From Alcanivorax sp. 24 (GTDB lineage Bacteria; Pseudomonadota; Gammaproteobacteria; Pseudomonadales; Alcanivoracaceae), in contig NZ_SNUA01000001.1 in the NCBI RefSeq assembly GCF_004360225.1, forward strand, positions 62,001-126,000: 64,000 bases of DNA. The letters are read 5' to 3'. Positions 14,351 to 47,967 of the stretch are shown piece by piece; positions within the stretch are counted from its first letter, which is position 1; the number at the start of each line of letters is the position of its first letter. Position numbers and translations under genes: made by a program. Below the pieces are notes generated by a model. It made no database searches and was not told the origin of the DNA. It saw only the letters and a program-made list of their open reading frames with translations.

Positions 14351-14366
14351 TCGTCGTTTCCGACGA
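14351..14366 (-). promoter_or_regulatory. TCGTC-N6-GACGA site, porin 1
   Basis: Plus strand TCGTCGTTTCCGACGA, with six-base perfect arms. On the minus strand it abuts TTGTTACC, which could serve as a -35 region, and an AGATAA -10-like sequence follows. The flanking GGTAACAA is shared with the porin 2 site. Confidence 0.8.
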
Positions 14367-14765
14367 GATGTGAAATTTATACTAATTGGGATGTTTCTAA
14401 TTTTTAGTCGGGATAAAAAGACTGAGTTACGGGTTAATAAAATTATTATTTAAAATGTGGAACGATTGTTCTATTGATATAAAAATAGAAAGGAAAATAC
14501 TTAGATATATAAACCAAGTTGAATTAAACAATAATGATGAGGTGAGGGATGTTTTGGGAGCGACCGGGAATGGGGATATTCATCCTTCCCGGAGAGGACT
14601 GATCGTGTGCTGGCGCACGGGTATCCCCCGTGGAAAGCGGCCTGGAGGTGTCAGGATTGGCGCGGAGGAGGGCTCTGTGGATCCTGAAGCGGCAGAGGAA
14701 AATGGAAGCCGGAAGGGGCTCTGAGGCTATCGCCGGCGGGGCAATATCAGCGCGGGCGGAGAGAA

Positions 14766-14800
14766 GGCAAAAGAAAAGGGGCGGCTGAGGCCGCCCCTTT
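14766..14800 (-). terminator. Rho-independent terminator of porin 2
   Basis: An 11-bp perfect stem AAAGGGGCGGC/GCCGCCCCTTT (14775-14785, 14790-14800) with a four-base loop is followed on the minus strand by TTTTCTTTT. It lies 28 bases after the porin 2 stop. Confidence 0.9.
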
Positions 14801-14827
14801 CCAGAGGGTTACTGATTGGGAAAACAA

Positions 14828-16195
14828 TCAGAAGTTCACGGTCATGTTCAGGCTGGCGGCTTTCACGTCGTCGTCGGCGAAGGTGTTCATTCCCGACAGA
14901 GAGCCAATCAGGCCATTGCCGGACAGGGTTCCGGCCTTGTTTTTCTCCAGCATGCCCACGGACAGCCAAGTGCGCAGCGCCTTGTTGACCTGATAGGCGA
15001 ATTGCAGGTCATAGACCATGCTGTCGTCGTCCACGGTGCCGGTATCCACGGACAGTTGGCCCACGGCGCCGGTTACGGCGAACTTGTCGGTGACGTTCCA
15101 GGTGAGCTTACCGATCACCAGATCCTCATCGTAGTCCTTCACGCCCAAGGTGCCGCCCATGCGGTACATGCTGGTGGCGCTTTGGGTTGCGTCGGGGTTG
15201 CTGTTGATCAGGCTGGAGTAGGTATCAAAACCGGGTGCGATCAGGCCGCCGTCGCGTGCAGTCACGTACTGGACACCCCAGTTCATCGGACCAACATCAC
15301 CTTCCAGACGGAAGTAGCCGGACGGAGACTGGTCAGTGAAGTATTGCTCGTCCGCCGCGCCTTCCACTTTGCCGTCGCTGAAGTGGTTGAAGCCCAGGGT
15401 GGCCTTGGCCACGTCGCCCAGGCCGCCGGTCACGTAACCGGATACCAGGTTGACGCCGTTCAGTGCGTAGGGGGTTGGCGTATAAGCCACGGTGCCGTCG
15501 TAGTTGTCCATCCACTTAACGAACAGCAGGCCGGCATTCCAGCTTTCGCTCAGCTTGCCGGTAACGCCCAGCAGGACCATGTCGCCGTTGTCCTGGTTGG
15601 CGAACGTATTGGTGTCGGCGCGACGGTCGTAGCCAAGCACCATGGTGGTGGTCTTGTTCAGAGGCTGAATCATCAGCACCCGGTCACGGCGATCGTCACA
15701 CGTCAGGAAGCAGTTGTTGTAACTGGTGGCCTGCCGGCCCACGCGAAAGATGGTGTGGCCCACCGGAATCTGCACATAGCCCAGATCCAGACGGACATTG
15801 TCGCCACGGCTGCTGGTATTGAAACCCTGGGGATTGGTGGTGCCGTATTTGCGGTCGTCACCGGTCCAGCGGTCGCCGGCCAGCTCCACGCTGGTGTAGA
15901 CGGAGATGCCGGTGTCTTCGTCGAGGAAGTTGGCTTTGACGCGAATCAGGTGGCCAATACCGTTATCCGTCTCGGAGGTGCCGGAGCCGCCATCGAAGGC
16001 GTCTGATTGTACCGCGAAGGCGGTAGCGCGGTATTCCATACCGAAATCGGTTTTCAGTGCCATGGCCGGAGCCGACATCAGGGTGCCGAGACCGATGGCG
16101 GAGCCGATAGCGGCGGCTTTGATGCTGGTGCGGAGTTGGGAACGGGCAGGACTAGCCTGACCCCCTTCGTGATTGCTGGTCCACTTAAGTGCCAT
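14828..16195 (-). CDS. Outer-membrane beta-barrel porin 2
   Basis: 455 residues, paralogous to porin 1 along its whole length: shared leader (IKAAAIGSAIGLGTLMS), shared KTDFGMEYRATAF start of the mature protein, shared VGRQATSYNNCFL segment and the same NMTVNF end. Divergence is concentrated in loops (for example GDDRKYGTT against GDSHGAASP). It has its own promoter, leader, CA motif and terminator, so the tandem pair is expressed as two separate units. A catabolite-controlled uptake porin for the island is the simplest reading. Confidence 0.85.
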   Translation of the reverse strand: MALKWTSNHEGGQASPARSQLRTSIKAAAIGSAIGLGTLMSAPAMALKTDFGMEYRATAFAVQSDAFDGGSGTSETDNGIGHLIRVKANFLDEDTGISVYTSVELAGDRWTGDDRKYGTTNPQGFNTSSRGDNVRLDLGYVQIPVGHTIFRVGRQATSYNNCFLTCDDRRDRVLMIQPLNKTTTMVLGYDRRADTNTFANQDNGDMVLLGVTGKLSESWNAGLLFVKWMDNYDGTVAYTPTPYALNGVNLVSGYVTGGLGDVAKATLGFNHFSDGKVEGAADEQYFTDQSPSGYFRLEGDVGPMNWGVQYVTARDGGLIAPGFDTYSSLINSNPDATQSATSMYRMGGTLGVKDYDEDLVIGKLTWNVTDKFAVTGAVGQLSVDTGTVDDDSMVYDLQFAYQVNKALRTWLSVGMLEKNKAGTLSGNGLIGSLSGMNTFADDDVKAASLNMTVNF

Positions 16196-16202
16196 TGTTA
16201 TT
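16195..16202 (-). promoter_or_regulatory. Hfq/Crc-type CA motif overlapping porin 2 start
   Basis: Minus strand AATAACAA running into the ATG (AATAACAATG), fitting AANAANAA; AGGA lies just upstream. Confidence 0.5.
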
Positions 16203-16267
16203 CGTCCTGTGTTCTTCGAAGTTTATTGATAGAGGGGTCGCTGTTTTGATTTATGACCCCAGGCCTC

Positions 16268-16424: not shown

Positions 16425-16440
16425 TCGTCGGTTTCGACGA
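16425..16440 (-). promoter_or_regulatory. TCGTC-N6-GACGA site, porin 2
   Basis: Plus strand TCGTCGGTTTCGACGA, with six-base perfect arms, flanked by GGTAACAA exactly as at porin 1. On the minus strand TTGTTACC abuts the site. Confidence 0.8.
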
Positions 16441-16925: not shown

Positions 16926-16941
16926 TCGTCGCTTCGGACGA
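16926..16941 (+). promoter_or_regulatory. TCGTC-N6-GACGA site, ligase/TRAP-1 operon
   Basis: TCGTCGCTTCGGACGA. A -10-like TAACAA at 16964-16969 puts the start near 16976 and the centre of the site near -42. No good -35 is present, as expected for an activated promoter. Confidence 0.8.
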
Positions 16942-16978
16942 CGAGTCTTTCCCGTTCGCCCCCTAACAATGGAAAGAG

Positions 16979-16986: not shown

Positions 16987-17020
16987 CATGGACCCGGCAG
17001 TCGGGAGAGATCAGTAATGG

Positions 17021-18643
17021 GTGACCTATATGGGTGACAAGGCCCCTTTCGCCGTTCGCCATGAGTATCACTTTGGCGATCGTCTGGTGCGCTGCTACGC
17101 GTCCAGACCGGCCAATCTGTTGGCTTCCTTTCGCCGTGCCGTGAGTCAGGCGCCGAACAAGGAGTGTCTGGTCTGCGATGGCCAGCGGTTCACGTATCGG
17201 GAGGCCAATCGGCGTGTGCAACATATCGCGGCCCAGTTGGCGCGGCGTGGCGTGGTAGCCGGTGACCGGGTCGCCTTGCTGATGGCCAACAGCAACGAGT
17301 TCGTGTTGGCGCTGCTGGGAGCGTTGCGGCTTGGCGCCATCGTGGTGCCGGTCAATATCCGGGAATCGAAATCCGGGCTCGCCTACATCCTTTATCATTG
17401 TCAGGCCAAGGCGCTGATTCACGACCATGCCCAGAGCGACAAGGTCAGCGGCCGCGAGACCTTGCCGGCGCTGGCTTTCCGTTTCGTGGTGGGAGATCGG
17501 GTCGCTGGCACCGAGCCTTTCGAGGCTCTGTTGAAAGAGGGGGCGCCGCGTCTGCCTTTGCCCTCCCTGCAAGAAGATGATACCGCCATTCTGCTGTATA
17601 CCTCGGGCACCACCGGGCGCCCCAAGGGAGTACGCCTGACCCATCTGAATCTGCTGCACAGCCTGATCCACTTCGAGCAGTCCATGGCGCTTGGTGACGA
17701 TGAGCGCTCCTTGTTAGTGGTGCCGGCGAGTCATGTCACCGGTGTGGTGGCCGTGATTCTGACCCTGTTCCATGTGGGCGGGTGCGTGGTGATCCAGCGG
17801 GAGTTCGACGCCCAGCGTTTCCTGGCGCTGGCTGATCGGGAACGGATCACGCACACGGTGATGGTGCCCGCCATGTACAACCTCTGTCTGCTGAGGGCGG
17901 ACTTCGATCAATTTGATCTGTCCGCCTGGCGTCTGGGCGGTTTCGGCGGCGCGCCCATGCCGGAGGCCACCATCAGGCGGTTGGCTGACCGCTTGCCGAA
18001 CCTGCGGTTGGTTAACGCATACGGGGCCACCGAAACCTGCTCACCGGCCACCATCCTGCCATTGGGTGAGGCTGCTCGGCGCGCCGACAGTGTCGGCAGG
18101 GTAGTCACGTGCGGTGACATCAAGGTGATGGACTCCAATGGCCGCGAACGGCCGCCGGGCGAAGCTGGCGAATTGTGGATCGCCGGCCCCATGGTGACGC
18201 CGGGATATTGGAACAATGCGGAGGCGGATCGCGCGGAATTCGCCGGTGGCTACTGGCGTTCCGGTGACATCGGTTCGGTGGACGAGGAAGGTTACGTGCG
18301 TGTGCTGGACCGCAAGAAGGACATGATCAATCGTGCTGGCTACAACGTCTACAGCGCCGAGTTGGAAGGGCTGCTGCAAGGGCTCGACGGGGTGATCGAG
18401 AGTGCCGCGGTGGCTCGGCCCGACCCGGTGCTGGGTGAGAAAATCCAGCTGTTCGTGGTCAGTGACGACCCGACGCTCAGCGCCGCCCGGCTCAAGGCCT
18501 ACTGCGCGGAACATCTGGCCGATTACAAAATCCCTGATTTCATCGATTTTCTTGAAGAGCCGCTGCCCCGTAACGCCAATGGCAAGGTGTTGAAAGCGCA
18601 ATTGAGGCAGCGTCTCGGCGATACCCAAACGGCGTCCGGCTAG
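17021..18643 (+). CDS. AMP-forming acyl-CoA ligase, class I adenylate-forming
   Basis: 540 residues. The P-loop-like YTSGTTGRPKG near residue 193, the YGATETC motif, the GYWRSGD hinge and the C-terminal catalytic lysine in NANGKVLK are all intact, so it should activate a carboxylic acid to its CoA thioester through an acyl-AMP. GTG 17021 is used (GGAGAG eleven bases before); ATG 17030 is an alternative. It is first in an operon with TRAP genes P, M and Q, suggesting that the imported acid is its substrate. Confidence 0.85.
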   Translation: MTYMGDKAPFAVRHEYHFGDRLVRCYASRPANLLASFRRAVSQAPNKECLVCDGQRFTYREANRRVQHIAAQLARRGVVAGDRVALLMANSNEFVLALLGALRLGAIVVPVNIRESKSGLAYILYHCQAKALIHDHAQSDKVSGRETLPALAFRFVVGDRVAGTEPFEALLKEGAPRLPLPSLQEDDTAILLYTSGTTGRPKGVRLTHLNLLHSLIHFEQSMALGDDERSLLVVPASHVTGVVAVILTLFHVGGCVVIQREFDAQRFLALADRERITHTVMVPAMYNLCLLRADFDQFDLSAWRLGGFGGAPMPEATIRRLADRLPNLRLVNAYGATETCSPATILPLGEAARRADSVGRVVTCGDIKVMDSNGRERPPGEAGELWIAGPMVTPGYWNNAEADRAEFAGGYWRSGDIGSVDEEGYVRVLDRKKDMINRAGYNVYSAELEGLLQGLDGVIESAAVARPDPVLGEKIQLFVVSDDPTLSAARLKAYCAEHLADYKIPDFIDFLEEPLPRNANGKVLKAQLRQRLGDTQTASG

Positions 18644-18737
18644 GCCACGGCGGTTCACCGCAACCGCCGGAGGATGGTTCCTGCGCTCCCAACATCGACA
18701 CGGATAAGCCGGTTGCGTTGCCGGGGAGGACATCTTT

Positions 18738-19817
18738 ATGCGCATGGTACGTTTGCTTCTGGTTATGGCACTCACGGCGATATCGGCGGTGTCCGCCGCC
18801 GCGCCGCTGAGAATTTCCGCCGGCATGGGGCAGCAGCACTTCTGGGTCGGCCAGCACATGGACCCGTTCGTGGACGCCATGGAAAAGGAAACGGACCTTT
18901 CCTTCGTACGTTTCTATTCCGGTTCCCTGGTGACGCCGGGACGGGAGTGGGATGCACTGAAGACGGGCACGATTTCGGTGGCCGCGCCACTGCTGGCGCC
19001 CTACCACGAAGGCAGTTTCCCACTGTCCGATGTGACCCAGTTGCCCACGCTGAATACCACTTCGGTGATGGTCACCAAGGCGCTTCAGACGCTGATGGAC
19101 TCCGATCAGGAACTGGCGGACGGCAAGACCTTTTACCAGTATGAGTTGGCCAGCAAGGGGCTGCGCGGCTGGCCCCTGGGGGCCACTTCCGCGTATTCGT
19201 TATCCACCATCGGCAGGGTGCTGGATTCTCCGGATGACCTGAAAGGCGCGCCGATCCGTGCCGGTTCCGCGCTGCACACCATACTGCTGCAGGAACTGGG
19301 CGCGACGCCAGTGACCATGACCAGCGCCGACTCCTACGAGGCGCTGTCCCGCAAGACGGTGATTGGCACCATCCTGTCGGTGGCGGATTGGCCGTCGTAC
19401 TCGTTCGAGGACCTGCTCAAGTACACCATCACCGGCATTTCCATGGGACATTGGGAAAGCTACCTGGCGGTCACCGACCAGACCTGGAACGGATTGACCG
19501 AACAACAGCGCGCCACCTGGGACCGGGTGGCGCGGCAAATAGCTCTGGATAACGCGGCCCATATTGACCAGCAGGAAGAGGCGGTGCGGGCCAGAACCCA
19601 GAAGGCGGGCGCCACCTTCGTGGAATTGAGCGAGTTGTCCGATGACATGGCCCGGCATCTGCAGGATGCCGCCAGCCGTACCTGGATTCGCTGGATCGAG
19701 CAGATGGAGCAGGCCGGGCATCCGGGTAAAGCCACCGCGCGCCTGTGGGCGGAGCTGATTGAAGAGCTGGGCGGCACCATTCCGCGGAGTGCCGTGGATT
19801 ACCTTGAGAAGGATTGA
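18738..19817 (+). CDS. TRAP transporter substrate-binding protein (DctP family), system 1
   Basis: 359 residues with a signal peptide ending VSAAA. DctP-type features include the GSLVTPGREWDALKTG segment, the LKGAPIRAGS motif that carries the carboxylate-binding arginine (R in PIRAG) and a long C-terminal helix. GGGGAGGA precedes the ATG. It lies between the ligase and the DctM gene, so the operon is ligase-P-M-Q. The ligand should be an organic acid. Confidence 0.85.
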   Translation: MRMVRLLLVMALTAISAVSAAAPLRISAGMGQQHFWVGQHMDPFVDAMEKETDLSFVRFYSGSLVTPGREWDALKTGTISVAAPLLAPYHEGSFPLSDVTQLPTLNTTSVMVTKALQTLMDSDQELADGKTFYQYELASKGLRGWPLGATSAYSLSTIGRVLDSPDDLKGAPIRAGSALHTILLQELGATPVTMTSADSYEALSRKTVIGTILSVADWPSYSFEDLLKYTITGISMGHWESYLAVTDQTWNGLTEQQRATWDRVARQIALDNAAHIDQQEEAVRARTQKAGATFVELSELSDDMARHLQDAASRTWIRWIEQMEQAGHPGKATARLWAELIEELGGTIPRSAVDYLEKD

Positions 19818-19826
19818 GCCGGTGCC

Positions 19827-21137
19827 ATGTCGAATACGCAGATAATCTGGATGGTGCTGGCCTGGTTCGCCGCCTTTCTGGTGCTTGGTCAGAACGTGGC
19901 CACGGTGCTGTTTGGCGCCGGCATGCTGGGTATCGTGCTGGTGGTCGGCGTCGATGTGCTCGGCGGGATTCTTGGTTCCGATACCTTCTACACCGCGTCG
20001 ATTTACTCCCTCTCGATCGTGCCGCTGTATTTGCTGATGGCTCAGTTGCTGTTGCGCGGCGGCGTGATACGGGATCTGTTCGCGGTGGGCCACAGGTTGT
20101 CGGGTTATCGGCGCTTCCCATTGGGCGTGGCGACCATCGTCACCGGCTCGTTACTGGGCGCGGTGTCAGGTTCCGGCGCCGCCAGCTCCGCTTCGTTGGC
20201 CTCCCTGGCCTCGCCGGAGCTGGAAAAACTGGGTTACACCCGGCGTTTCTCGTTGAGCCTCTCGGCGGTGGCCGGCTCGCTGTCGGCGATCATTCCACCG
20301 AGTTTGATCATGATTATTTATGGTTCGCTGGCGTCGGTGCCCATCGGTCATCTGTTCATCGGCGCGATCGGGCCGGGGCTGTTGTGCATCGTGATCTATA
20401 TCATCTGTCTGCGACTGTTTGGCGAATTGCGCGAGGGCGCGGTGGATGGTCAGGCGCCGGAGCAGGCGCCGCCCTCCGGGGAAGCCCGTCGCAGCATGAC
20501 CGCTTTTTTGTTCGTGGTGGCACTGATGCTGATTGTGTTTGGCGGCATCTACGGTGGTGTGGTGACGGTGGCGGAGGCCGGCGCACTCGGCGCCTTCACC
20601 GCCATGGCCGGCATGATGTTGATGAGAAGGGTCAATGTGCGCGGTTTGTTCGAGGCGCTGGCGGAGTCCGTGAAGGTTACCGCCACGTTGATGATGCTGG
20701 TGCTTGGCGCCAAGATTTTCGCCCGCTTTCTGACCTTTTCCCGCTTGCCCAATGAGCTGCTGTCACTGATGGATCCGATACTGGGGCATCCCAATGTGGT
20801 GGCGGCGATCCTGATGGCGGTGTTTTTTCTCGGTGGCATGTTCCTGGAATCGGCGGCGGTGATCGTACTGTTGGTGCCGATCATTTTGCCGTTATTGCAA
20901 AGTGCCGGCATCGACCTGTTGTGGTTCGGGGTGGTGGCGTCGTTGATGATCGCGCTGGGACTGCTCACGCCCCCGGTGGGGTTGGCCACTTTCGCCGCCG
21001 CCAGCGCCGGCAACTATCCGGTGGCGCGGGTATTCCGGTCCGCCAGCCTGTTCGCGCTGGTGGCCGGCGTGGTGCTGACTGTTCTGCTGATCAGCTATCC
21101 CGCTCTGATTACCTGGCTGCCACAGCAAATTCGCTGA
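19827..21137 (+). CDS. TRAP transporter large permease (DctM), system 1
   Basis: 436 residues with about twelve hydrophobic segments. The GSGAASSASLASLASPE stretch after helix 4 and IIPPSLIMIIYG are DctM hallmarks of the sodium-coupled membrane domain. It begins nine bases after the P gene. The small Q subunit follows instead of preceding it, which is less common than P-Q-M. Confidence 0.92.
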   Translation: MSNTQIIWMVLAWFAAFLVLGQNVATVLFGAGMLGIVLVVGVDVLGGILGSDTFYTASIYSLSIVPLYLLMAQLLLRGGVIRDLFAVGHRLSGYRRFPLGVATIVTGSLLGAVSGSGAASSASLASLASPELEKLGYTRRFSLSLSAVAGSLSAIIPPSLIMIIYGSLASVPIGHLFIGAIGPGLLCIVIYIICLRLFGELREGAVDGQAPEQAPPSGEARRSMTAFLFVVALMLIVFGGIYGGVVTVAEAGALGAFTAMAGMMLMRRVNVRGLFEALAESVKVTATLMMLVLGAKIFARFLTFSRLPNELLSLMDPILGHPNVVAAILMAVFFLGGMFLESAAVIVLLVPIILPLLQSAGIDLLWFGVVASLMIALGLLTPPVGLATFAAASAGNYPVARVFRSASLFALVAGVVLTVLLISYPALITWLPQQIR

Positions 21138-21157
21138 GCCGCGCGAGAGGAGAAACC

Positions 21158-21682
21158 ATGGTGTTCTGGAAAGCCATTGACCGGTTGGAAGGTGGTCTGG
21201 CCTCGGTGGGCGCCGGCCTCTGCCTGTTTCTGATCATGATGATCACGGTGATCGGCGTGCTCGGTCGTTACTTATTGGGGATGGACCTGATTCCCGGTGG
21301 TTACAACATGATCGAACGTATGCTGTTTCCCCTGTTGGTGTTCTGGGCGGTGCCGCTGGGGCATCGGCAGGGCACCTTTCCCCGCTTCGATATTCTGGCT
21401 GACAAGCTGTCGCCGGGATGGGCGCGAGCGGTGGCGGTGCTGGTGCTGACCGTGGAGATCGTGATCTTCGCCGTATTGCTCTGGTATCTGTGGCAATTCG
21501 CCTGGGATGCGGCGCAAAGCGCCCGGCAGATGCAGATCGGTACCCGCTTGTGGCCGGTATGGCCGGTGATGTTGATGATGCCGCTGGCGTTCGCGCTGAT
21601 GTTGCTGGAGATGGTGCGGCTATGGTGGGAGGCCCTGGCCGGCCGCCAAGCCGGCGCCGGTGATGTTGAGACCAGTGGCTAG
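21158..21682 (+). CDS. TRAP transporter small permease (DctQ), system 1
   Basis: 174 residues with four predicted membrane helices and the DctQ motif region GVLGRYLLGMDLIPGG in helix 1-2. The start ATG at 21158 is preceded by GAGAGGAGA. It is the last gene of the ligase-P-M-Q operon and is followed by a convergent LysE gene. Confidence 0.85.
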   Translation: MVFWKAIDRLEGGLASVGAGLCLFLIMMITVIGVLGRYLLGMDLIPGGYNMIERMLFPLLVFWAVPLGHRQGTFPRFDILADKLSPGWARAVAVLVLTVEIVIFAVLLWYLWQFAWDAAQSARQMQIGTRLWPVWPVMLMMPLAFALMLLEMVRLWWEALAGRQAGAGDVETSG

Positions 21683-21727: not shown

Positions 21728-22360
21728 TCAGAACGGGCGGCTCATGGCCAGGCGCAGGGCGAATCCGATCAGAACAGTGGCGAACAGGCCGCGCTGAAGC
21801 CGCTGCGCCCAGGGGCGATGTTGCATCCACAGGCCGAGTGCGCGGCCGCCGGCGATATAGAGCAGGTCAAACAAGACGCCCAGGCCTACCAGAATCGTCC
21901 CCAGCACTAGAAACTGCGTGCCCACCGAGCCGTTGTCGATATCGACGAACTGGGGCAGCAACACGGAGCAGAACAGCAGCGATTTGGGATTGGTGAAATT
22001 GGTCAGCAAGCCACGCCAGGCCGCCGAGCGATAGGCTCGGGGCGGGCTCCCCAGTAGCGCCGCCGAATCCTCCAGCGACCAGGATGAGGCGCGGCCGATC
22101 TTGATGCCGAGCCAGACCAGATAGAGTACCCCGATCCAGCGAACCAGCTCGAATAGCCACGGTGAGGTTTTCAGCAACGCGGCCAGACCGGCGGCCGCCA
22201 TGACCACATGGGTCCCACGGGCCACCGCCAGCCCCGCCGCAGTCGCCAGACCCTGGGCGCGTCCCCTGACACTGGCGGTCTCCAGTACCAGAACCAGGTC
22301 CGGACCGGGTATCAGATAAGCCACCACCAGGGCGCCGATAAACATTTCAAGATGGGCCAT
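21728..22360 (-). CDS. LysE/RhtB-family amino-acid exporter
   Basis: 210 residues, the usual family length, with six hydrophobic segments and the signature LIPGPDLVLVL near the N-terminus and NFTNPKSLLF in the middle. The start at 22360 was preferred over 22393 because it gives the family start MAHLEMF. It is divergent from an Lrp/AsnC gene, a common pairing in which the regulator controls the exporter. Not obviously part of the acid catabolic island. Confidence 0.88.
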   Translation of the reverse strand: MAHLEMFIGALVVAYLIPGPDLVLVLETASVRGRAQGLATAAGLAVARGTHVVMAAAGLAALLKTSPWLFELVRWIGVLYLVWLGIKIGRASSWSLEDSAALLGSPPRAYRSAAWRGLLTNFTNPKSLLFCSVLLPQFVDIDNGSVGTQFLVLGTILVGLGVLFDLLYIAGGRALGLWMQHRPWAQRLQRGLFATVLIGFALRLAMSRPF

Positions 22361-22495
22361 GCTCAGTAGGGTCCGAGTGCTTTTCCATGGCACTAAAGGG
22401 TACGGGCTCCGTGGATGGGCCGGATTGCGTTTTGGTGGGTGATGGCGCCGTATGGTGGCATATAATGCTAATGGCCAACCTGAAAGGAGCTATTT

Positions 22496-22987
22496 ATGCC
22501 AGAAATGAAATTGGACAATCTGGACCGGCGGATTCTGACCGCGTTGCAGCGGGACGGCAGGTTGAGCAACGTTCAGCTGTCCGAGGAGGTGGGGCTATCG
22601 CCGTCACCCTGTTTACGCCGGGTTCGCCTACTGGAGCGAAGCGGGATCATTCGCGGCTACCGCGCCGAGCTGGACCGCGCCGGGGTGGGGCTGGGGTTGA
22701 CGGTTTTCGTCGGCATCAAAGTGGGGCAGCACGATGACGAGGCGGACAGCGCCTTCCGCGGCGCCGTGGCGGATCTGCCGGAGGTGGTGGCCTGTTATCT
22801 GCTTTCCGGAGAGTCGGACTTTCTGCTGCAAGTGGTGGTGCCGGATCTGCCCGCCTACGAACGGTTTTTGCGCGGCACTTTGCTGAAACTTCCTGGTGTC
22901 ATCGATATCCGCAGCAACTTCGCCATTTCCACGGTCAAGCGGGAAACCGCTTTGTCGCTGGCGCATCTGCCGGGGGCGGCGGGATGA
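22496..22987 (+). CDS. Lrp/AsnC-family transcriptional regulator
   Basis: 163 residues: N-terminal HTH (LDNLDRRILTALQRDGR with VGLSPSPCLRRVRLLE, about residues 5-55) and a C-terminal RAM domain (CYLLSGESDFLLQVV). AAAGGAG precedes the ATG. It is divergent from the LysE gene with 135 bp between, and is probably its amino-acid-responsive regulator. Confidence 0.92.
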   Translation: MPEMKLDNLDRRILTALQRDGRLSNVQLSEEVGLSPSPCLRRVRLLERSGIIRGYRAELDRAGVGLGLTVFVGIKVGQHDDEADSAFRGAVADLPEVVACYLLSGESDFLLQVVVPDLPAYERFLRGTLLKLPGVIDIRSNFAISTVKRETALSLAHLPGAAG

Positions 22988-25424: not shown

Positions 25425-25491
25425 GGCAGGGCCTTCTCCGCTGTGCTGGACATGGGGGATACAGATTCACGACCCCGGTGACAGGCGGCAA

Positions 25492-25507
25492 TCGTCGGTT
25501 AGGACGA
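25492..25507 (-). promoter_or_regulatory. TCGTC-N6-GACGA site, SDR/isomerase/nitroreductase operon
   Basis: TCGTCGGTTAGGACGA. It is followed on the minus strand by TTGCCG and a GAATCT -10-like sequence 17 bp later. It is one of two copies, 17 bp apart centre to centre, in the divergent promoter region. Confidence 0.75.
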
Positions 25508-25508
25508 A

Positions 25509-25524
25509 TCGTCTTTTCGGACGA
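25509..25524 (+). promoter_or_regulatory. TCGTC-N6-GACGA site, PaaG-like crotonase gene
   Basis: TCGTCTTTTCGGACGA. A -10-like AACGAT (25545-25550) puts the centre of the site near -40. Confidence 0.75.
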
Positions 25525-25588
25525 CGCCCGCCAGGGGGCTTCCCAACGATGATGCGGAGCCACTTCATTTGGCCTGCAAGGAGTCACC

Positions 25589-26356
25589 ATGACCAGCGAA
25601 GCGCTTGTCGATTATCGGGTGAACGGGGCCGTGGCGATCGTCAAGATGAACCGCCCGGACGCCCTCAACGCCTTCAATATCCCCCTGCGCGAGGCCCTGT
25701 TGGCCGCACTCAACGAGGCGGAGCAGGACGACCGCGTCAAAGTGGTGGTGCTCGGTTCCACCGGTCGTGCCTTTTCCGCTGGTGCCGATCTGATGGAGTC
25801 GCCGGAAAACAAGCCCAGCGTGATTGAAACCCTGTTGGATGGTTATCGGCCCTTGCTGGAGAAAATCTCCACCCTGCCGCTGCCGGTTATTGGCATGACC
25901 CCCGGGGTAGCCGCTGGCGTCGGCGCGGCGGTATTGATGGCCTGTGATCTGGTACTGATGGCGGAGGAAGCCCGGATATACATGGCTTTCAGCCACATCG
26001 GGCTGGTTCCCGACGGCGGTGCCACCTGGTTTCTCTATCAGCACCTGGGTTACCAGCGTGCTTTCCAGTTGATCGTCGAGGGCGGCAGTCTGGATGCTCA
26101 ACGCTGTCTGGCGCTGGGTATCGCCAATCAGGTTCTGCCGGTGGATCAGCTCGAAGCCCGGGCGCTGGAATGGGGTGGCCAACTGGCGCAACGCTCTCCT
26201 TTGGCCACCGCCGAAGCCAAGCGTCTGCTGCGCGCGGCGGCCACCAGTAGCTACGCGGAAACCTATCAGCAGGAAGCGGTGGCGCAACACCGTTGCATCG
26301 CCAGTCCGGAGTCGAAGGCGGCGGTGGAAGCCTTTAAAGCGAAGTCGAAGAAATAG
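25589..26356 (+). CDS. Crotonase-family protein, PaaG-like isomerase type
   Basis: 255 residues. The oxyanion-hole regions STGRAFSAGADL and GVAAGVGAAVL are present, but both hydratase glutamates are missing. In place of the second is GLVPDGGATWFL, with the aspartate of the PaaG family (2,3-dehydroadipyl/oxepin-CoA isomerase group). It stands alone between the divergent promoter and the LvaABC-like operon. An isomerase moving a double bond is more likely than a hydratase. Confidence 0.83.
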   Translation: MTSEALVDYRVNGAVAIVKMNRPDALNAFNIPLREALLAALNEAEQDDRVKVVVLGSTGRAFSAGADLMESPENKPSVIETLLDGYRPLLEKISTLPLPVIGMTPGVAAGVGAAVLMACDLVLMAEEARIYMAFSHIGLVPDGGATWFLYQHLGYQRAFQLIVEGGSLDAQRCLALGIANQVLPVDQLEARALEWGGQLAQRSPLATAEAKRLLRAAATSSYAETYQQEAVAQHRCIASPESKAAVEAFKAKSKK

Positions 26357-26371: not shown

Positions 26372-26387
26372 TCGTCTGATTCGACGA
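26372..26387 (+). promoter_or_regulatory. TCGTC-N6-GACGA site, LvaABC-like operon
   Basis: TCGTCTGATTCGACGA. A good -10, TAGAAT (26411-26416), places the start near 26423 and the centre of the site near -43. Confidence 0.8.
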
Positions 26388-26425
26388 CGTTAATCCGGTT
26401 GGCGGGTTCCTAGAATTTTTACGCA

Positions 26426-26458: not shown

Positions 26459-26534
26459 CCGCCGCCGGAATCTGAGTCCCGGTGGCGGTTGAACCGGGGT
26501 CGCGGACCCAATGAGCAGCCAGCATGGGGAACTC

Positions 26535-27527: not shown

Positions 27528-27549
27528 GCGCCTGTCCAAGGAGCGACCG

Positions 27550-27921: not shown

Positions 27922-27996
27922 GGTGTACGGGCCCCGGCGCGCCGGCGATGGCGGCCCGAGAGGAGCCCGCCCACAAAACCCACGAAGGAGGGTGTG

Positions 27997-31159: not shown

Positions 31160-31175
31160 TCGTCCTTTTCGACGA
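31160..31175 (+). promoter_or_regulatory. TCGTC-N6-GACGA site, racemase operon
   Basis: TCGTCCTTTTCGACGA. CATGAAT (31201-31207) is the best -10-like sequence, centre of the site near -45. Confidence 0.72.
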
Positions 31176-39436: not shown

Positions 39437-40054
39437 GGAAGCCTACCTCAAGGGTGAACCGAGCCGATGCAACCATCGGTTCTTGTTGTTATGGCTTTAT
39501 TGCTGCCAGGGCACAGTGCGGGTGAAACGCGGTGAGCAGAGAGTCGAGCGGCTCCCGAGCCGATCTTGCCGCTCTCTGGTACCTGCTACCTTCCGGCTGA
39601 TTCTTGCCAATTTCCGCACCTACCAAAGGGTATCCTGAAACCTACAGCCGTGGGAGCTTATGTTCAAGCCAGTGCGGTTACTTGTAGGGGGGTGGCAAGG
39701 GGTTGTCAATGAACCGGGTCAGGTGGCGAGATTTTGCCAACCTGAACCGGCAGTTTTCGCCAGGGATCAGACGGGAAAGCCAGGGCCTTATTTCTGTTTA
39801 TTCCATAAATATCAAAGGCCTTGCACTGTTTCGTCCATTTAGACGATATCCAGTGTCGGTGCACTCTCCTAGCCTTTTAGAGCCTGAACAGGCAGGCAGC
39901 GGCGCGGTCATGCCGTGGTATCGAAAAGAGAACGAACGTACACCGTCAGAGCCTGAATACTTCCTGGAATTTCAGTGGTCATTGCGATGCAGTGTTCTCG
40001 GAACCGCTCCGGCGCCGTTGCCATTCCTTATATGAGTTAATTGAAGGATTTCCT
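39437..40054. other. Divergent control region between the LAL regulator and SDR
   Basis: 618 bases. It contains the TCGTC site at 39831 and a TAGCCT -10-like sequence serving the SDR, and presumably the promoter of the regulator. Short open frames present lack ribosome binding sites. Confidence 0.5.
39831..39846 (+). promoter_or_regulatory. TCGTC-N6-GACGA site, HSD10-like SDR
   Basis: TCGTCCATTTAGACGA. TAGCCT (39870-39875) as -10 puts the centre near -43, leaving a leader of about 170 bases. Confidence 0.7.
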
Positions 40055-40837
40055 ATGAAACTGGATTCTTCCGTGAGCGCAGTGATTACCGGTGGGGCTT
40101 CCGGCCTGGGGGCGGCCACTGCCCGGCGTCTGGCCGCCCATGGGGTGCGGGTGGCGCTGTTCGACGTTAACGAAGAGCAAGGCGAGGCCCTGGCGGCCGA
40201 ACTGGGCGGCGTGTTCTGCAAGGTGGACGTCACCGATGACGCGTCCGTGGACCAGGGCTTCGAAAAGGCCCGTGCCGCCATTGGCCAGGAGCGCATCCTG
40301 GTGAACTGCGCCGGCATCGGGGGTTCCGCCAAGACCGCCGGCCGGGACAAGAAAGACGGCTCCACCAATCATTATCCGATCGACCAGTTCAATCGCATTG
40401 TCCAGATCAACCTGGTCGGTTCGTTCCGCTGTTCCGCCAAGGCGGCCAAGGGCATGTTGTCCCTGGATCCGCTGGAGCATGGCGAGCGAGGAGTGATGAT
40501 CAACACGGCCTCGGTGGCCGCTCAGGATGGTCAGATCGGGCAGACCGCCTATTCCGCCTCGAAGGCCGCCCTGGTGGGCATGACGCTGCCCATGGCCCGT
40601 GATCTGATGAGCGAGGGCATCCGTGTCAACACCATCATGCCGGGAATCTTCGAAACCCCGCTGCTGGCCCGTTTGCCGGAAAACGTGAAACAGTCCCTGT
40701 CCGCCTCGGTGCCGTTCCCGAAACGGCTGGGCAGCCCCGATGAATTCGCCCAGTTGGCGGAAACCATGATCGTCAATGGTTACTTCAACGGTGAGAGTGT
40801 GCGCCTGGACGGTGCCATCCGCATGGCGCCACGGTGA
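40055..40837 (+). CDS. 3-hydroxyacyl-CoA dehydrogenase-type SDR (HSD17B10-like)
   Basis: 260 residues. The cofactor motif TGGASGLGAAT, DVNEEQG for NAD preference, NCAGIGG, and YSASKAAL as active-site pair are intact. The region KTAGRDKKDG with the long loop before FNRIVQINLVGSFRC matches type II 3-hydroxyacyl-CoA dehydrogenases. It would oxidise the 3-hydroxyacyl-CoA just before thiolysis; the thiolase gene is next. The ATG at 40055 follows GAAGGA. Confidence 0.86.
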   Translation: MKLDSSVSAVITGGASGLGAATARRLAAHGVRVALFDVNEEQGEALAAELGGVFCKVDVTDDASVDQGFEKARAAIGQERILVNCAGIGGSAKTAGRDKKDGSTNHYPIDQFNRIVQINLVGSFRCSAKAAKGMLSLDPLEHGERGVMINTASVAAQDGQIGQTAYSASKAALVGMTLPMARDLMSEGIRVNTIMPGIFETPLLARLPENVKQSLSASVPFPKRLGSPDEFAQLAETMIVNGYFNGESVRLDGAIRMAPR

Positions 40838-40856: not shown

Positions 40857-40872
40857 TCGTCGCTTCGGACGG
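40857..40872 (+). promoter_or_regulatory. TCGTC-N6-GACGA site (one mismatch), thiolase/ligase operon
   Basis: TCGTCGCTTCGGACGG, the last base differing. GAGAAT (40895-40900) as -10 puts the centre near -42. The first 15 bases are identical to the site at 16926. Confidence 0.7.
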
Positions 40873-40954: not shown

Positions 40955-42136
40955 ATGAGTGAAGCCTATATCGTTGCCGCGGCCCGCACCGCGGGTGGCC
41001 GCCGCGGCGGCCGTCTCTCCGGCTGGCACCCCGCCGATCTGGCCGGCCAGGTGCTCAATGCCCTGCTGGATCGCGCCGATGCGGACCCGGCTCTGATCGA
41101 GGATGTGATCATGGGCTGCGTCGGCCAGGCTGGTGAACAGTCCAACAACGTGGCCCGTAACGCGGTGCTGGCCTCGCGCCTGCCGGAATCGGTGCCGGCC
41201 ACCTCGGTGGACCGTCAGTGCGGGTCCTCCCAACAAGCATTGCATTTCGCTGCCCAGGCGGTGATGTCCGGCACCCAGGACATCGTTATCGCCGCCGGCG
41301 TGGAATCCATGAGCCGGGTTCCCATGGGGTCGCCGTCCTCTCTGGCGCGTCAGCAGGGGCTCGGGCACTACTTCAGCCCGGCGATGAAGGAACGCTACCC
41401 GGATATTCCGGATTTCAGCCAGTTCATGGGCGCTGAGATGATGGCCGAGAAGTACGACCTGGCCAAGGACGAGCTGGATCGCTTTGCCCTGCTTAGCCAT
41501 GAGCGTGCCAGGCGTGCCACCGAGGCTGGTGACTTCAAGGACGAAATCGTGCCGCTGCCGGTTCGCAGCGTCGATGGTGCCGGTGACGGCGAAACCCATG
41601 ATGTGGATGAAGGCATTCGCTTCGACGCCACTCTGGAAGGCATTCAGAACGTCAAATTGCTGAAGGAAGGCGGGCGTATCACCGCCGCCACCGCCAGCCA
41701 GATCTGTGACGGTGCGTCCGGTGTCATGGTGGTCAACGAGCGTGGCCTGAAAGCCCTTGGGCTGGAGCCCATGGCCCGCATTCACCATTTGACCGTGATC
41801 GGTCACGATCCGGTGATCATGCTGGAAGCGCCGATTCCAGCCACCGAGCGGGCGCTGAAGAAAGCGGGCATGAGCATTGATGACATCGATCTTTTCGAAG
41901 TCAACGAAGCCTTCGCGCCGGTACCGCTGGCCTGGCTGAAAACACTGGGCGCCGACGCCGACCGCCTGAACGTGAACGGCGGCGCCATTTCCCTGGGGCA
42001 CCCGCTGGGCGGTTCCGGCACCAAGCTGATGACCACGCTGTTGCATGCTCTGAAAAAGCGCGACAAACGCTATGGTCTGCAGACCATGTGTGAAGGCGGC
42101 GGTCTGGCCAACGTGACCATCGTCGAGCGCCTCTGA
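40955..42136 (+). CDS. Acetyl-CoA C-acyltransferase (thiolase)
   Basis: 393 residues. Catalytic residues are present: C89 in DRQCGSSQQA, H349 in ISLGHPLGGSG and C379 in MCEGGGLAN. NEAFAPVPLAW is the conserved NEAFA region. It cleaves 3-ketoacyl-CoA with CoA, closing the beta-oxidation cycle. It follows the 3-hydroxyacyl-CoA dehydrogenase gene and is the first gene of its own operon with a ligase. Confidence 0.94.
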   Translation: MSEAYIVAAARTAGGRRGGRLSGWHPADLAGQVLNALLDRADADPALIEDVIMGCVGQAGEQSNNVARNAVLASRLPESVPATSVDRQCGSSQQALHFAAQAVMSGTQDIVIAAGVESMSRVPMGSPSSLARQQGLGHYFSPAMKERYPDIPDFSQFMGAEMMAEKYDLAKDELDRFALLSHERARRATEAGDFKDEIVPLPVRSVDGAGDGETHDVDEGIRFDATLEGIQNVKLLKEGGRITAATASQICDGASGVMVVNERGLKALGLEPMARIHHLTVIGHDPVIMLEAPIPATERALKKAGMSIDDIDLFEVNEAFAPVPLAWLKTLGADADRLNVNGGAISLGHPLGGSGTKLMTTLLHALKKRDKRYGLQTMCEGGGLANVTIVERL

Positions 42137-42154
42137 TTCCGGACGCGCTGATCT

Positions 42155-42206
42155 CCCCGCGGGCCGGGGTATACCGGCTTGCGGGGTCCGTTCGGTGGAC
42201 GAACGG
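42155..42206 (+). other. Hairpin and palindrome between thiolase and ligase
   Basis: CCCCGC ... GCGGGG with inner CCGG/CCGG (42155-42186) forms a hairpin without a T-run, followed by the perfect palindrome CCGTTCG-N5-CGAACGG (42188-42206). They may reduce read-through or bind a regulator. Confidence 0.4.
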
Positions 42207-42213
42207 TATAACG

Positions 42214-42221
42214 AATAACAA
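42214..42221 (+). promoter_or_regulatory. CA motif at the ribosome binding site of the AlkK-like ligase
   Basis: AATAACAA adjoins the AAGGAGG site of the following gene, fitting AANAANAA and well placed for Hfq/Crc-type translational repression. Confidence 0.5.
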
Positions 42222-42233
42222 AAGGAGGTATCC

Positions 42234-43886
42234 ATGCAGGGTCTGATGCAAGACAAGCCGCTATTGATTTCCTCGCTCATCGAGCACGCGGCCACTTTCC
42301 ATCCTGATCAGGAAATTGTCTCGCGCAGCATCGAGGGGCCTATTCATCGTACCAATTACCGGCGGATCGCCCATCGCGCCAAACAGGTCGCCAACGTTCT
42401 GAACGAGCTGGGCGCCGAATTCGGTGATCGGATTGGTACCCTGGCATGGAACACCTGGCGTCACATGGAGCTTTATTTCGGGGTTTCCGGGTCCGGTGCG
42501 GTGCTGCATACGGTGAACCCCCGTCTGTTCCCCGAACAAGTGGAGTACATTCTCAACCACGCCGGGGACAAGGTGCTGTTTTTTGATATCAGCTTCGCGC
42601 CGCTGGTGGAGAAACTGGTACCGAAACTCAAAAGTATCGAGCATTTCGTGGCGCTTACTGATCGCGACAACATGCCCGACGCCGATATTCCCGGCCTGCT
42701 CTGTTACGAAGACCTGGTGGAAGCCGCCAGCGCTGAATTTGAATGGCCGGAGTTCGACGAGCGTACCGCTTCCAGTCTGTGCTATACCTCCGGCACTACC
42801 GGCAATCCGAAAGGCGTGCTGTACTCCCATCGTTCCACCGTATTGCACTCGCTGATGGCGATGGCGCCGGATGCCTTCAATGTCAGCGCCCGATCGACCT
42901 TGCTGTTGGTGGTGCCGATGTTTCACGCCAACGCCTGGGGCATGCCCTACGTGGCGGCCATGGTCGGCGCGAAAATGGTTCTGCCCGGCGAACATCTGGA
43001 CGGTGAGCATCTCTATCCGTTGATGCGTGACGAGCGCGTGACGTTTTCCCAGGCGGTGCCGACAGTGTGGTTGATGTTCTTCCAGTACCTTGATGCCCAT
43101 CCGGAACTGGATCTGGAGAAGGAACTGTGTCTCGACACCATCGGCATTGGTGGCAGCGCGCCGCCCCGGGCCATGGTGCGGCGGCTGGAGACGCAGCTCG
43201 GAGCTCAGGTGATTCAGGGCTGGGGCATGACTGAAACCAGTCCGCTGGGCGTGGTCAACCGGCCCTTGCCCAAACACGATGATCTGGATCGCGATGGCCT
43301 GGATGAGCTCAAGGTGAAGCAGGGGCGCGGCATCTGGGGCGTGCACATCAAGATCGTCAACGATGAGGGCGAGCCGCAGCCCTGGGATGGCGTGCATTCC
43401 GGCCATCTCTATATTCGCGGCCCCTGGATCGCCAGTGGCTACTTCCGGGCCGAAGGGGGTGGGGCGCTTGATGGTGAGGGCTATTTCCCTACCGGTGATA
43501 TCGCCACCATGGATCCGGACGGCTATTTGCAATTGGTGGACCGGGCCAAGGACGTTATCAAGTCCGGAGGAGAGTGGATTTCCTCCATGGATTTGGAAAA
43601 CGCCGCCTTTTCCCATCCCGGCGTGGCGGAAGCCGCGGTGATCGCCATTCCCCATGAGAAATGGCAGGAACGTCCGCTGATGGTAGTGGTGAAGCGCGCG
43701 GGTGCGCGGGTTGATGAAGACGAGATCATGGCGCATCTGGCGGAACGAGTGGTGAAGTGGTGGCTGCCGGACGATATCGTGTTCGTCGACGAACTGCCGC
43801 ATACCGCCACCGGGAAGCTTCTGAAGACCAAGCTACGTGAGCAATTCACCGGTTATCGTCCCCGGCGTGAAGCGGTGAGATCCTGA
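42234..43886 (+). CDS. Medium/long-chain acyl-CoA ligase, AlkK-like
   Basis: 550 residues, as for AlkK. The start [12 protein letters not shown] and the motifs [11 protein letters not shown] (from about residue 184), [21 protein letters not shown] and the catalytic lysine in ATGKLLK are intact. AAAGGAGG precedes the ATG. Ligases of this group activate medium-chain fatty acids and are frequent in alkane users. Second gene of the thiolase operon. Confidence 0.9.
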
Positions 43887-44009: not shown

Positions 44010-44025
44010 TCGTCGGAACCGACGA
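44010..44025 (+). promoter_or_regulatory. TCGTC-N6-GACGA site, TRAP-2 operon
   Basis: TCGTCGGAACCGACGA, a perfect inverted repeat with six-base arms. TACACT (44049-44054) puts the centre near -43. Confidence 0.82.
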
Positions 44026-44358
44026 TGATCCCCTGACAAACCGCCTCTTACACTCGAAGCACCAATCGATAAGCCTTTGGTGTTTTTCTCTTTGCGTGCA
44101 AAAAAGAGAAATTAAATCAATAAACTTTATCCAATTGGCGTTTGAACCCGGGTCATTTCAATCCGGCCCGAGTGGCTCATGGAACAGGCATGGCGCAGAA
44201 GAGGAGGTGCCTTTTCGTGGGCAGCAACTTTGTCAAGCTTCTGTCAATTGCCGCCATCTTACCCAGAGGGCCGGCATGGTACAAAAGCGTAATAATAATT
44301 ATGTGGTGTCTTGTCAGAACGGCGCCGGAAAATACAGGAGTCGCGGTATGGCCTGGAT

Positions 44359-44970: not shown

Positions 44971-44980
44971 GAGACCGGCG

Positions 44981-46288: not shown

Positions 46289-46296
46289 GCCTGCGC

Positions 46297-46323
46297 GCGG
46301 CGCGCCATGCCCGGGCGCGCCGC
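46297..46323 (+). terminator. GC-rich hairpin between DctM and ligase
   Basis: A perfect 10-bp stem GCGGCGCGCC/GGCGCGCCGC with a short loop and no T-run. Possibly a partial terminator or processing site lowering expression of the downstream ligase. Confidence 0.45.
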
Positions 46324-46360
46324 TACTTACTGATGACGGATAACAACAGGGAAGAACCCG

Positions 46361-47932
46361 ATGACAAAACAATACGACCTTTCTGACTCTGTTCAGGTGG
46401 CCATTCGCAACACCATTGGCGACGCCCTGCGCCGATCCGCCGGCCGGCAACCCGCGGCGCCGGCGCTGCAATTCGAGGACCGTATCTGGTCTTATCAAGA
46501 GCTGGATCTTGCCGCCAACCGGGTGGCCAATGGTTTGCTGGCGCGGGGATTACAAAAAGGGGATCGCGTCGCCGCCTATGGCAAGAATTCCGACGCCTAT
46601 GTTCTGCTTTGGCTGGCTTGCGCCCGGGCCGGCCTGATTCATGTGCCGGTGAACTACGGGCTGGTCCAGCGTGAACTGACCTACATCTGCAATCAGTCCG
46701 GCGCCCGTGCCCTGTTTTGCGACGACAGCCTGGCGGCCAACGTGGAAGCGGTGCGCAATGATCTCGGTGTCGAGCTGTACGGTTCCCTACGCCGTGGCGC
46801 CTTGGCTGAAGGTGTGGATATTCTGGCGTTGGCCCAGGGACGTGGCGAAGCGACGGCGCCGGATATCGCACTCAGCGATGACGATGTGGTACAGATTCTT
46901 TATACCTCGGGTACCACCTCCGATCCCAAAGGAGCCATGCATACGCATCGGTCTCTCATGGCGGAATATCAGTCTTGCCTGCTGCATCTGGACATTAGCG
47001 GAAAAGATCGCGGTCTGGCGGCGCTTCCTCTGTATCACTCGGCGCAGATGCACGTTTTTCTGATGCCCAGCCTGCTATGTGGAGCATTCAATTACCTTAT
47101 TGACGCACCGGTTCCGGACCAGGTTCTGGCTCTGATCGAAGAGCAGAAGATCACGTCATTCTTCTCCCCGCCAACGGTATGGATCGGCCTGTTGCGTCAC
47201 CCGGATTTTGACCGCCGTGACCTGAGTACGCTGGAAAACCTGTACTACGGCGCTTCCATTATGCCGGAGCCGATTGTCCATGAACTGGCGGAACGTCTGC
47301 CGCAAGGGCGTCTGTTCAACTGCTATGGGCAAAGCGAAATCGCTCCCATGGCGACGGTGCTGGAACCCCATGAGCATGCCGACCGACCGAGCTCTTGCGG
47401 CCGCCCTCTGACCTCTGTGGAAACCCGGGTGGTCAAACCTGGCACTCTGGAGGATTGCGCGCCGGGCGAACAAGGAGAGATCGTGCATCGCTCGCCGCAT
47501 CTGATGGTGGCGTACTGGGACAAGCCCGAGGAAACCGAGGAAGCCTTCAAGGGCGGTTGGTTTCATTCCGGCGATCTCGCCTACCAGGACGAGCAGGGCT
47601 ACCTGTACATCGTCGATCGCATCAAGGATGTGGTGAATACCGGCGGCGTGCTGGTGGCCAGCCGCGACGTCGAGGAAGCCCTGTATGGCCATGAATCGGT
47701 GGCGGAGGTGGCGGTGATCGGGGTGCCCCACGAGAAGTGGATTGAATCGATTGTCGCCGTCGTTGTGGTAAAAGAAGGCAAAGCCGCCGATGCCGCCGCT
47801 CTGATCGATCACGCGCGGCAGCATCTGGCTCCGTTCAAAGTGCCCAAGGCGGTGCATTTTGTTGAGGCTCTGCCGAAGAATACCGCGGGAAAACTGCTCA
47901 AACGCACGCTCCGTGAGCAGTACGCACGCTGA
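46361..47932 (+). CDS. AMP-forming acyl-CoA ligase
   Basis: 523 residues. YTSGTTSDPKGAM (P-loop-like, with Ser-Asp after the second Thr), NCYGQSEIAPM, GWFHSGDLAY and the lysine in NTAGKLLK are present. GGGAAG precedes the ATG. Divergent in the acyl-pocket region from the other three ligases here, so a different acid or pathway stage is likely. Third gene after DctQ and DctM. Confidence 0.87.
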   Translation: MTKQYDLSDSVQVAIRNTIGDALRRSAGRQPAAPALQFEDRIWSYQELDLAANRVANGLLARGLQKGDRVAAYGKNSDAYVLLWLACARAGLIHVPVNYGLVQRELTYICNQSGARALFCDDSLAANVEAVRNDLGVELYGSLRRGALAEGVDILALAQGRGEATAPDIALSDDDVVQILYTSGTTSDPKGAMHTHRSLMAEYQSCLLHLDISGKDRGLAALPLYHSAQMHVFLMPSLLCGAFNYLIDAPVPDQVLALIEEQKITSFFSPPTVWIGLLRHPDFDRRDLSTLENLYYGASIMPEPIVHELAERLPQGRLFNCYGQSEIAPMATVLEPHEHADRPSSCGRPLTSVETRVVKPGTLEDCAPGEQGEIVHRSPHLMVAYWDKPEETEEAFKGGWFHSGDLAYQDEQGYLYIVDRIKDVVNTGGVLVASRDVEEALYGHESVAEVAVIGVPHEKWIESIVAVVVVKEGKAADAAALIDHARQHLAPFKVPKAVHFVEALPKNTAGKLLKRTLREQYAR

Positions 47933-47951
47933 GAAAGGCAGTGCGTTGGAA

Positions 47952-47967
47952 TAGTCGGTTCGGACGA
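47952..47967 (+). promoter_or_regulatory. TCGTC-N6-GACGA site (one mismatch), ligase/DctP/ACAD operon
   Basis: TAGTCGGTTCGGACGA, the second base differing. AATAAT (47991-47996) as -10 puts the centre near -43. Confidence 0.72.

Follow-up and report, generated by a model that had tools for sequence, protein, structure and literature searches.

A palindromic sequence at the catabolic promoters of an Alcanivorax genomic island is the probable operator of the island's own LAL-type regulator

Several catabolic activators are known among the LAL (MalT/LuxR-type) regulators. AlkS activates the alkane genes of Pseudomonas putida GPo1 and Alcanivorax borkumensis and is described as acting through a 20-bp inverted-repeat operator at the alkB and alkS promoters (PMC8784404). 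The sites of MalT are described as decanucleotides in direct repeat, and the site proposed for TpdR of Rhodococcus jostii TMP1 as a 15-nt direct repeat, 5'-TnnAAnnGCGGAnTC-3' (PMC6099782). Here, we describe a candidate operator for yet another LAL protein, encoded in a catabolic gene island of Alcanivorax sp. 24. The analyzed stretch, referred to below as the window, consists of 64,000 nucleotides of contig NZ_SNUA01000001.1 (positions 62,001 to 126,000). The palindrome TCGTC-N6-GACGA, with the fuller consensus TCGTCG-N-WW-N-CGACGA, stands ahead of most catabolic units of the island. Judging from sequence comparisons, it is very likely to be the operator of the island's own LAL regulator (910 aa; gene at 36704 to 39436, minus strand), the proposed reader of all these sites, which would exert class II activation of a catabolic regulon.

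The exact palindrome is found nine times in the window, against a mean of 0.03 expected, and none of 100 shuffled sequences reached nine copies. A pattern search returned all nine coordinates given in the initial annotation of this DNA and also its two one-mismatch copies, at 40857 and 47952; the mismatch in the latter had been assigned to an outer base but actually affects the second one (TAGTC). All 11 island copies are intergenic according to our gene calls, which come from a simple codon-usage scorer and have approximate starts, and in all 11 the two bases at the middle of the spacer are A or T, TT or AA having usually been noted there at first. Eight additional one-mismatch places in the window were not counted as sites: seven have no A/T centre, and the remaining one, at 21933, has such a centre and a score of 17.7 (higher than the 16.7 of the 40857 copy) but lies within the LysE gene. 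The claim that a site precedes every catabolic unit is mostly correct; the exception is a glycerate-kinase-like gene (35218 to 36504), which has no site immediately before it, unless it is part of the racemase operon.

The initial annotation reported no copies beyond the island, which is true of exact copies in the window but not of the 4.76-Mb source genome (G000). The bare N6 form has 36 exact copies in this genome, 27 of them outside the island, compared to 20 copies of the reversed pattern that served as the control. One could view the motif as arising incidentally from G+C-rich coding sequence or from the duplication of promoters: outside the island, the bare form is near the control rate (27 versus 20), 11 of the 12 examined non-A/T exact copies (from a total of 19 outside the island) are located inside genes, and the two porin promoters of the island are likely duplicates. 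Against this explanation, to which we give almost no credence, the A/T-centred exact copies are far above the control (17 versus 3, with nine in the island and eight elsewhere), those of the island are intergenic, and they are conserved while their flanks are not. The non-A/T matches were rejected as regulon members because nearly all of the 12 examined are located within genes.

Six of the eight A/T-centred copies outside the island are intergenic and lie upstream of catabolic or regulatory genes, which encode an APH-type kinase, two acyl-CoA ligases, a DctP receptor, a sigma-54 activator/thiolase pair, and a DctP/AMP-binding pair. Since these targets repeat the island functions, the predicted regulon extends beyond the island, and the best reading of the sequence data is a larger, genome-wide catabolic regulon. 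The other two copies are within genes (loci L021 and L022); the L022 copy, inside a MocR-like gene, has TATGAT at 22 bp and faces a glyoxalase-like gene. Seven of the eight outside copies have a counterpart with an identical or almost identical spacer in the closely related genome G007, where the matching downstream gene was confirmed for four, and the single A/T-centred copy found off the island contig in Alloalcanivorax mobilis (G001) is also ahead of a DctP-like gene. One outside ligase has orthologues only in three close relatives, with paralogues elsewhere. At locus L020 (G000:C6:170514-174529; site at 2001), the A/T-centred copy is 128 bp from a PAS/sigma-54 activator gene, with a divergent thiolase gene opposite. 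Full-length orthologues of this activator gene within the genus are found only in G000, G006, G007, and G008. The LAL protein may control this second regulator.

Comparison with close relatives demonstrates that the half-sites are maintained. The genomes G006, G007, and G008, whose LAL proteins are 98% identical to the one studied here, keep 10 of the 11 island sites, including the porin 1 site at 14351. The 47952 site is gone from these three genomes along with its promoter and the whole intergenic stretch (window positions 47933 to 48032), which is kept in G000 and A. mobilis, the latter also having the TAGTC variant. As a result of this loss, the ligase directly follows the upstream ligase, and two units, ligase/DctP/acyl-CoA dehydrogenase (ACAD) and TRAP-2, become one. 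A. mobilis, with a LAL that is 75 to 76% identical, was taken as the informative comparison. Although its island is rearranged, nine orthologous units each still have a site in front of them, and the ligase/TRAP-1 site has been relocated together with its unit. Across these nine promoters, G000 and A. mobilis share 89 of 90 half-site bases (ten per promoter) and 35 of 54 spacer bases, compared to 100 of 360 in the 40 bases upstream and 66 of 198 in the first 22 bases downstream. No site was found before the porin gene in the A. mobilis island that was searched.

The second line of evidence comes from promoter geometry. We scored -10-like hexamers in the range of 12 to 44 bp past the palindrome, using Escherichia coli -10 and -35 matrices and letter shuffles as nulls. 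The 31 Alloalcanivorax orientations included 12 from the island, 9 from seven outside copies (the in-gene L021 copy being excluded), and 10 from A. mobilis, with some divergent sites counted on both sides. The best hexamer was located at 22 to 23 bp in 19 of the 31 (null, 2.0; maximum of 6 in 300 shuffles), including 7 of the 12 island orientations. In other genera, this was the case for 30 of 73 gene-facing orientations (null, 4.3; maximum, 10), or for 24 of 51 after removal of the sister genomes G278 and G395 (null, 3.1; maximum, 8), and for none of the 21 orientations that face no gene (null, 1.2). This peak corresponds to a palindrome centred at about -42.5 to -43.5 and ending at about -36; together with the preferred -10 distance, such an arrangement suits a class II activator. 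At the sequence level, and with predicted starts, the centre has a fixed place near -42, where the site would replace the -35 box, as expected for this class. The lack of a good -35 noted initially is borne out by the counts, with only 2 of 43 promoters having a -35 that scores 4 or more, although the mean score, given below, is above the shuffled null.

Because the palindromes overlap the -35 position, the bound LAL protein could instead be a repressor that blocks RNA polymerase until released by an inducer. Such a role would agree with the -35-like sequences being mildly above the null, and the Streptomyces LAL protein SCO6993 is described as a negative regulator. We nevertheless consider repression quite unlikely, given the scarcity of fair -35 boxes, the preferred distance of 22 to 23 bp, which is an activator spacing, and the status of AlkS and MalT as activators.

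The protein expected to act as the activator has the LAL architecture. Its length of 910 aa fits that of a ~900-aa protein with an N-terminal ATPase, represented here by the P-loop APAGFGKST and, downstream of it, LFLDDF. The central region (residues 458 to 800) matches TPR_MalT (Pfam ID PF17874; E = 3.9e-23), and the C-terminal LuxR-type helix-turn-helix (HTH) domain, with the sequence VSDSTIRTHLRNIN, matches GerE (Pfam ID PF00196; E = 1.3e-16; residues 849 to 904). The nearest solved structure is that of MalT (8bob; E = 5.2e-47, an N-terminal match), but the score against the curated MalT equivalog NF003420, 364.7 bits, is below the cut-off of 537, and the protein is not MalT proper. The HTH domains of LAL proteins from motif-bearing genomes have in common VS[DE]ST.RTHLR[NS]IN.KL, and three homologues without the motif differ in this stretch (VSQNTVRTHLRN, LSEFTVKSHLRN, and ISVSTVRAHLRN). 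On a tree of 26 LAL proteins, the motif label needs two changes, versus 8.5 on average in shuffles, and thus marks two related clades rather than one; in this labelling, the second LAL proteins of G155 and G259 were scored as motif-less although they are located in motif clusters. These second proteins, one per genome (L130 in G155 and L129 in G259), are more distant from the query (31 to 35% identity), are encoded in the same cluster, and have a related HTH; they may share the operator.

The case for LAL as the reader draws on its distribution, which follows that of the motif both inside two genera and over the order as a whole. Among the 13 Alloalcanivorax genomes (genus g1), the five that encode LAL (75 to 100% identical) carry 17, 9, 18, 18, and 17 A/T-centred copies; eight others, with matches to the HTH domain only, carry 0 or 1 copy each. 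The order-wide sample consisted of 390 genomes, with A. mobilis excluded, 13 of which were LAL positive (a homologue at E <= 1e-100). At least four copies of the stricter pattern TCGTCGNWWNCGACGA were present in exactly eight genomes, and all eight were LAL positive (G000, 6 copies; G006, 6; G007, 7; G008, 6; G045, 4; G155, 10; G259, 10; and G278, 10), with LAL identities of about 38 to 100%; all other genomes had three copies or fewer. In genus g31, three LAL-positive genomes had 10 copies each of this pattern, and 13 genomes without a homologue at this E-value threshold had 0 or 1. The initial proposal of an activator operator read by LAL is thus supported by comparison, through the spacing peak in several genera and the co-occurrence of LAL and motif.

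The sites also tend to be located near the LAL genes. In G276 and G395 (LAL identity of 53 to 54%), with two TCGTCGNWWNCGACGA copies each and six and four copies of the looser pattern (controls, one and four), three copies per genome are within a few kilobases of LAL, and the sites flank LAL and genes of the DctPQM set. In G045 (44 to 45%), one of the seven copies is just past LAL, one is ahead of a thiolase/ligase unit, three are in a DctPQM cluster, and two are elsewhere, one of them in a gene. In G155, G278, and G259 (37 to 40%), 13, 10, and 12 exact copies, respectively, fall within ~89, 50, and 77 kb around LAL, in loci that have few close homologues of the window genes; the ten scanned proteins of G155 include a TonB receptor, a FadL-type porin, a wax-ester synthase, and two lipid-transfer-type thiolases. 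Of the regulators in the window, only LAL has a homologue in all seven other sets of loci (G001, G276, G395, G155, G278, G259, and G045), and the only other window genes represented in all seven are two generic AMP-ligases (22 to 37% identity outside A. mobilis). The genome of G278 also contains seven copies of the 16-mer TCGTCAATACAGACGA, on contigs C7, C10, C11, C18, C19, C22, and C44, which are probably within a mobile or repeated element and inflate the motif count of 22 in this genome.

The same distribution bears on the other candidate readers. A Pfam scan of all 55 window genes identified four DNA-binding regulators: LAL, a TetR family protein (54505 to 55155), an Lrp/AsnC protein (22496 to 22987), and an OmpR-type response regulator (56898 to 57587) next to a histidine kinase. 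TetR operators typically take the form of such a 16-bp palindrome, and the genes for all three alternative regulators are in or near the island. However, the TetR orthologue is missing from the motif-bearing G008 and G001, which have only paralogues with 22 to 32% identity; G001 likewise lacks the Lrp orthologue and has a 44% paralogue instead, of a sort present in 13 of 13 genomes regardless of the motif; and no homologue of any of the three proteins was detected in the other motif-bearing loci that were examined. Recognition by any of them is accordingly highly improbable, with TetR and Lrp/AsnC being excluded by distribution. As co-occurrence does not equal binding, the reader could also be encoded elsewhere and share the distribution of LAL. 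We find this very unlikely, given that the sites lie from a few kilobases to ~75 kb from LAL in several families with differing targets, so that the rival would have to accompany LAL each time. The sigma-54 regulator of the dispersed locus L020, a candidate of this kind, lacks an orthologue in G001, where the best match is at 43%, and was rejected by its distribution.

Several observations weigh against assigning all these sites to activation by LAL. Five of the 12 island orientations (the two porins, racemase, LAL-facing, and thiolase) do not have the standard -10 as the best hexamer, although for thiolase the departure is narrow (best at 27, next at 22). The centre position noted initially, usually about 40 to 45 bp before the predicted start, holds as a peak (19 of 31 and 24 of 51; centre at about -43). 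There is a minor second -10 peak at 36 to 39 bp in the other genera, and the mean -35 score, 0.16, is somewhat above the shuffled null of -1.31 (SD, 0.34). In G395, the A/T-centred copies do not exceed the control (four each), though three of them adjoin its LAL, and three of the 13 LAL-positive genomes (G345, G154, and G166; LAL identity of 37 to 44%) show no motif excess and have no TCGTCGNWWNCGACGA copies. Genomes within one genus are not independent in these counts, and the intervals for the proximity test were picked after the sites were known. Finally, the absence of OmpR-type homologues from the other motif-bearing loci comes from a search confined to these loci.

With activation by LAL as the favoured interpretation, the following mechanism can be proposed. 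The LAL protein, probably in complex with ATP and with a small inducer that the pathway produces or takes up, would bind DNA through its C-terminal LuxR-type HTH domains, two of which would occupy the two half-sites symmetrically. The half-site centres are separated by 11 bp, one turn of DNA, a distance that suits the binding of two LuxR-type HTH domains to the same face of the helix. Positioned at about -51 to -36, in place of the -35 box, LAL would recruit RNA polymerase as a class II activator and thereby switch on the acyl-CoA ligases, TRAP transporters, and beta-oxidation enzymes of the island, less surely the two porins, and some six dispersed units of like function. The encoded TRAP receptors, acyl-CoA ligases, CoA-transferase, and a protein similar to the pimeloyl-CoA dehydrogenase small subunit (below the cut-off) suggest carboxylic or dicarboxylic acids as the substrate and an acyl-CoA or acid intermediate as the signal.

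The comparison also raises a broader idea, which at present we find evenly balanced: that in at least four families, and at identities down to ~38%, this LAL subfamily has held on to a single operator and a single promoter geometry while its target pathways were swapped almost wholesale. The targets do differ, from TRAP and beta-oxidation genes in Alloalcanivorax to a TonB receptor and lipid-related genes in another genus. If this idea is correct, LAL would sense a chemical feature common to the swapped pathways, perhaps an acyl-CoA intermediate, and the operator would act as a portable label by which catabolic genes, in and out of islands, are brought into one regulon, a clean case of a regulator-operator pair staying fixed while the regulon is replaced. 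In any case, an uncharacterised regulator subfamily can now be assigned a precise candidate operator together with a promoter geometry and predicted targets that include six units outside the island. A cluster of unassigned substrate becomes testable as well: the pathway is delimited by the regulon, and knowledge of the inducer would reveal the substrate.

The island sites are as follows, starting from its left end. The porin 1 site (14351 to 14366, minus strand) is upstream of porin 1 (12708 to 14090), with the best hexamer at 29 bp and no -10 at 22 to 23 bp, and the porin 2 site (16425 to 16440, minus strand) is upstream of porin 2 (14828 to 16195), also with the best hexamer at 29 bp. The two porin-like genes (12708 to 16195) are in tandem, are related to each other, and have no Pfam match; in both promoters, TTGTTACC directly follows the palindrome, and the best -10 is six to seven bases farther than in most units. 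The ligase/TRAP-1 site (16926 to 16941, plus strand) serves the unit at 17021 to 21682, with the -10 AACAAT at 16965 to 16970. The island also includes a LysE-type exporter and Lrp/AsnC pair (21728 to 22987), which is non-catabolic and has no intergenic site. This pair is absent from the A. mobilis stretch, which likely reflects a later insertion here or a loss in A. mobilis.

Two divergent sites follow, spaced by 17 bp here and by 42 bp in A. mobilis. One (25492 to 25507, minus strand) belongs to the short-chain dehydrogenase/reductase (SDR)/isomerase/nitroreductase unit (25424 to 23017), which has a weak -10, GAATCT, at 25468 to 25463 on the minus strand and TTGCCG as a possible -35; the other (25509 to 25524, plus strand) precedes a PaaG-like gene (25589 to 26356) with the -10 GATGAT at 25548 to 25553. 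The next site (26372 to 26387, plus strand; -10 TAGAAT at 26411 to 26416) is ahead of the LvaABC-like unit, which begins at 26511. The gene order at 26511 to 29283, APH-type kinase, 123-aa DUF6285 protein, and acyl-CoA dehydrogenase, corresponds to the LvaABC order of 4-hydroxyacid catabolism. The CoA-transferase/racemase site (31160 to 31175, plus strand; unit from 31219) has no clear -10 at 22 to 23 bp, whereas the A. mobilis racemase promoter has TACCCT at 22 bp.

The site between the SDR and LAL genes (39831 to 39846, plus strand) has TAGCCT at 39870 to 39875 on the side of the SDR gene (40055 to 40837, plus strand), and the best hexamer on the LAL side (minus strand) is not at 22 to 23 bp. 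The thiolase/ligase site (40857 to 40872, plus strand; unit at 40955 to 43886), which has one mismatch here and the exact consensus in A. mobilis, is followed by GAGAAT at 22 bp and a slightly better TTCAAT at 27 bp. The TRAP-2 site (44010 to 44025, plus strand; -10 TACACT at 44049 to 44054) precedes DctQ (44407), DctM (44981), and a ligase (46397). In G006, G007, and G008, the matches to this ligase (46397 to 47932) cross one in-frame TGA. The one-mismatch site of the ligase/DctP/ACAD unit (47952 to 47967, plus strand) has the -10 AATAAT at 47991 to 47996, and the unit probably starts with the ATG at 48033 rather than at 47976. Farther downstream (52160 to 54494), an acyl-CoA dehydrogenase gene is followed by one for a protein that resembles the pimeloyl-CoA dehydrogenase small subunit (271.9 bits versus a cut-off of 652.7), a hint of dicarboxylate breakdown.

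Neither the operator nor the regulon nor their pairing with this regulator subfamily was found in print in a search of open-licence literature, which is weak evidence of novelty. Palindromes read by pairs of GerE-type HTH domains also include the LuxR/TraR-type boxes and the NarL 7-2-7 sites; those sites differ in sequence, and their regulators have no ATPase/TPR body. MalT, the maltose activator of E. coli, has the same domain order as LAL, and TpdR is a LAL activator of a catabolic operon; direct repeats are described for MalT and a direct repeat is proposed for TpdR (PMC6099782), whereas the LAL site described here is palindromic. AlkS is a parallel in being a LuxR/MalT-type catabolic activator with an inverted-repeat operator near -35, and it is also found in a relative of this organism. 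In contrast to its 20-bp repeat, described for two promoters (PMC8784404), the 16-bp TCGTC-N6-GACGA would serve about a dozen island units and the dispersed ones, and the Pfam scan of the window proteins detected no alkane hydroxylase family. Thus, LAL activators with palindromic operators are already known, and the best reading of this locus is an AlkS/MalT-like LAL activator that has an operator of its own.

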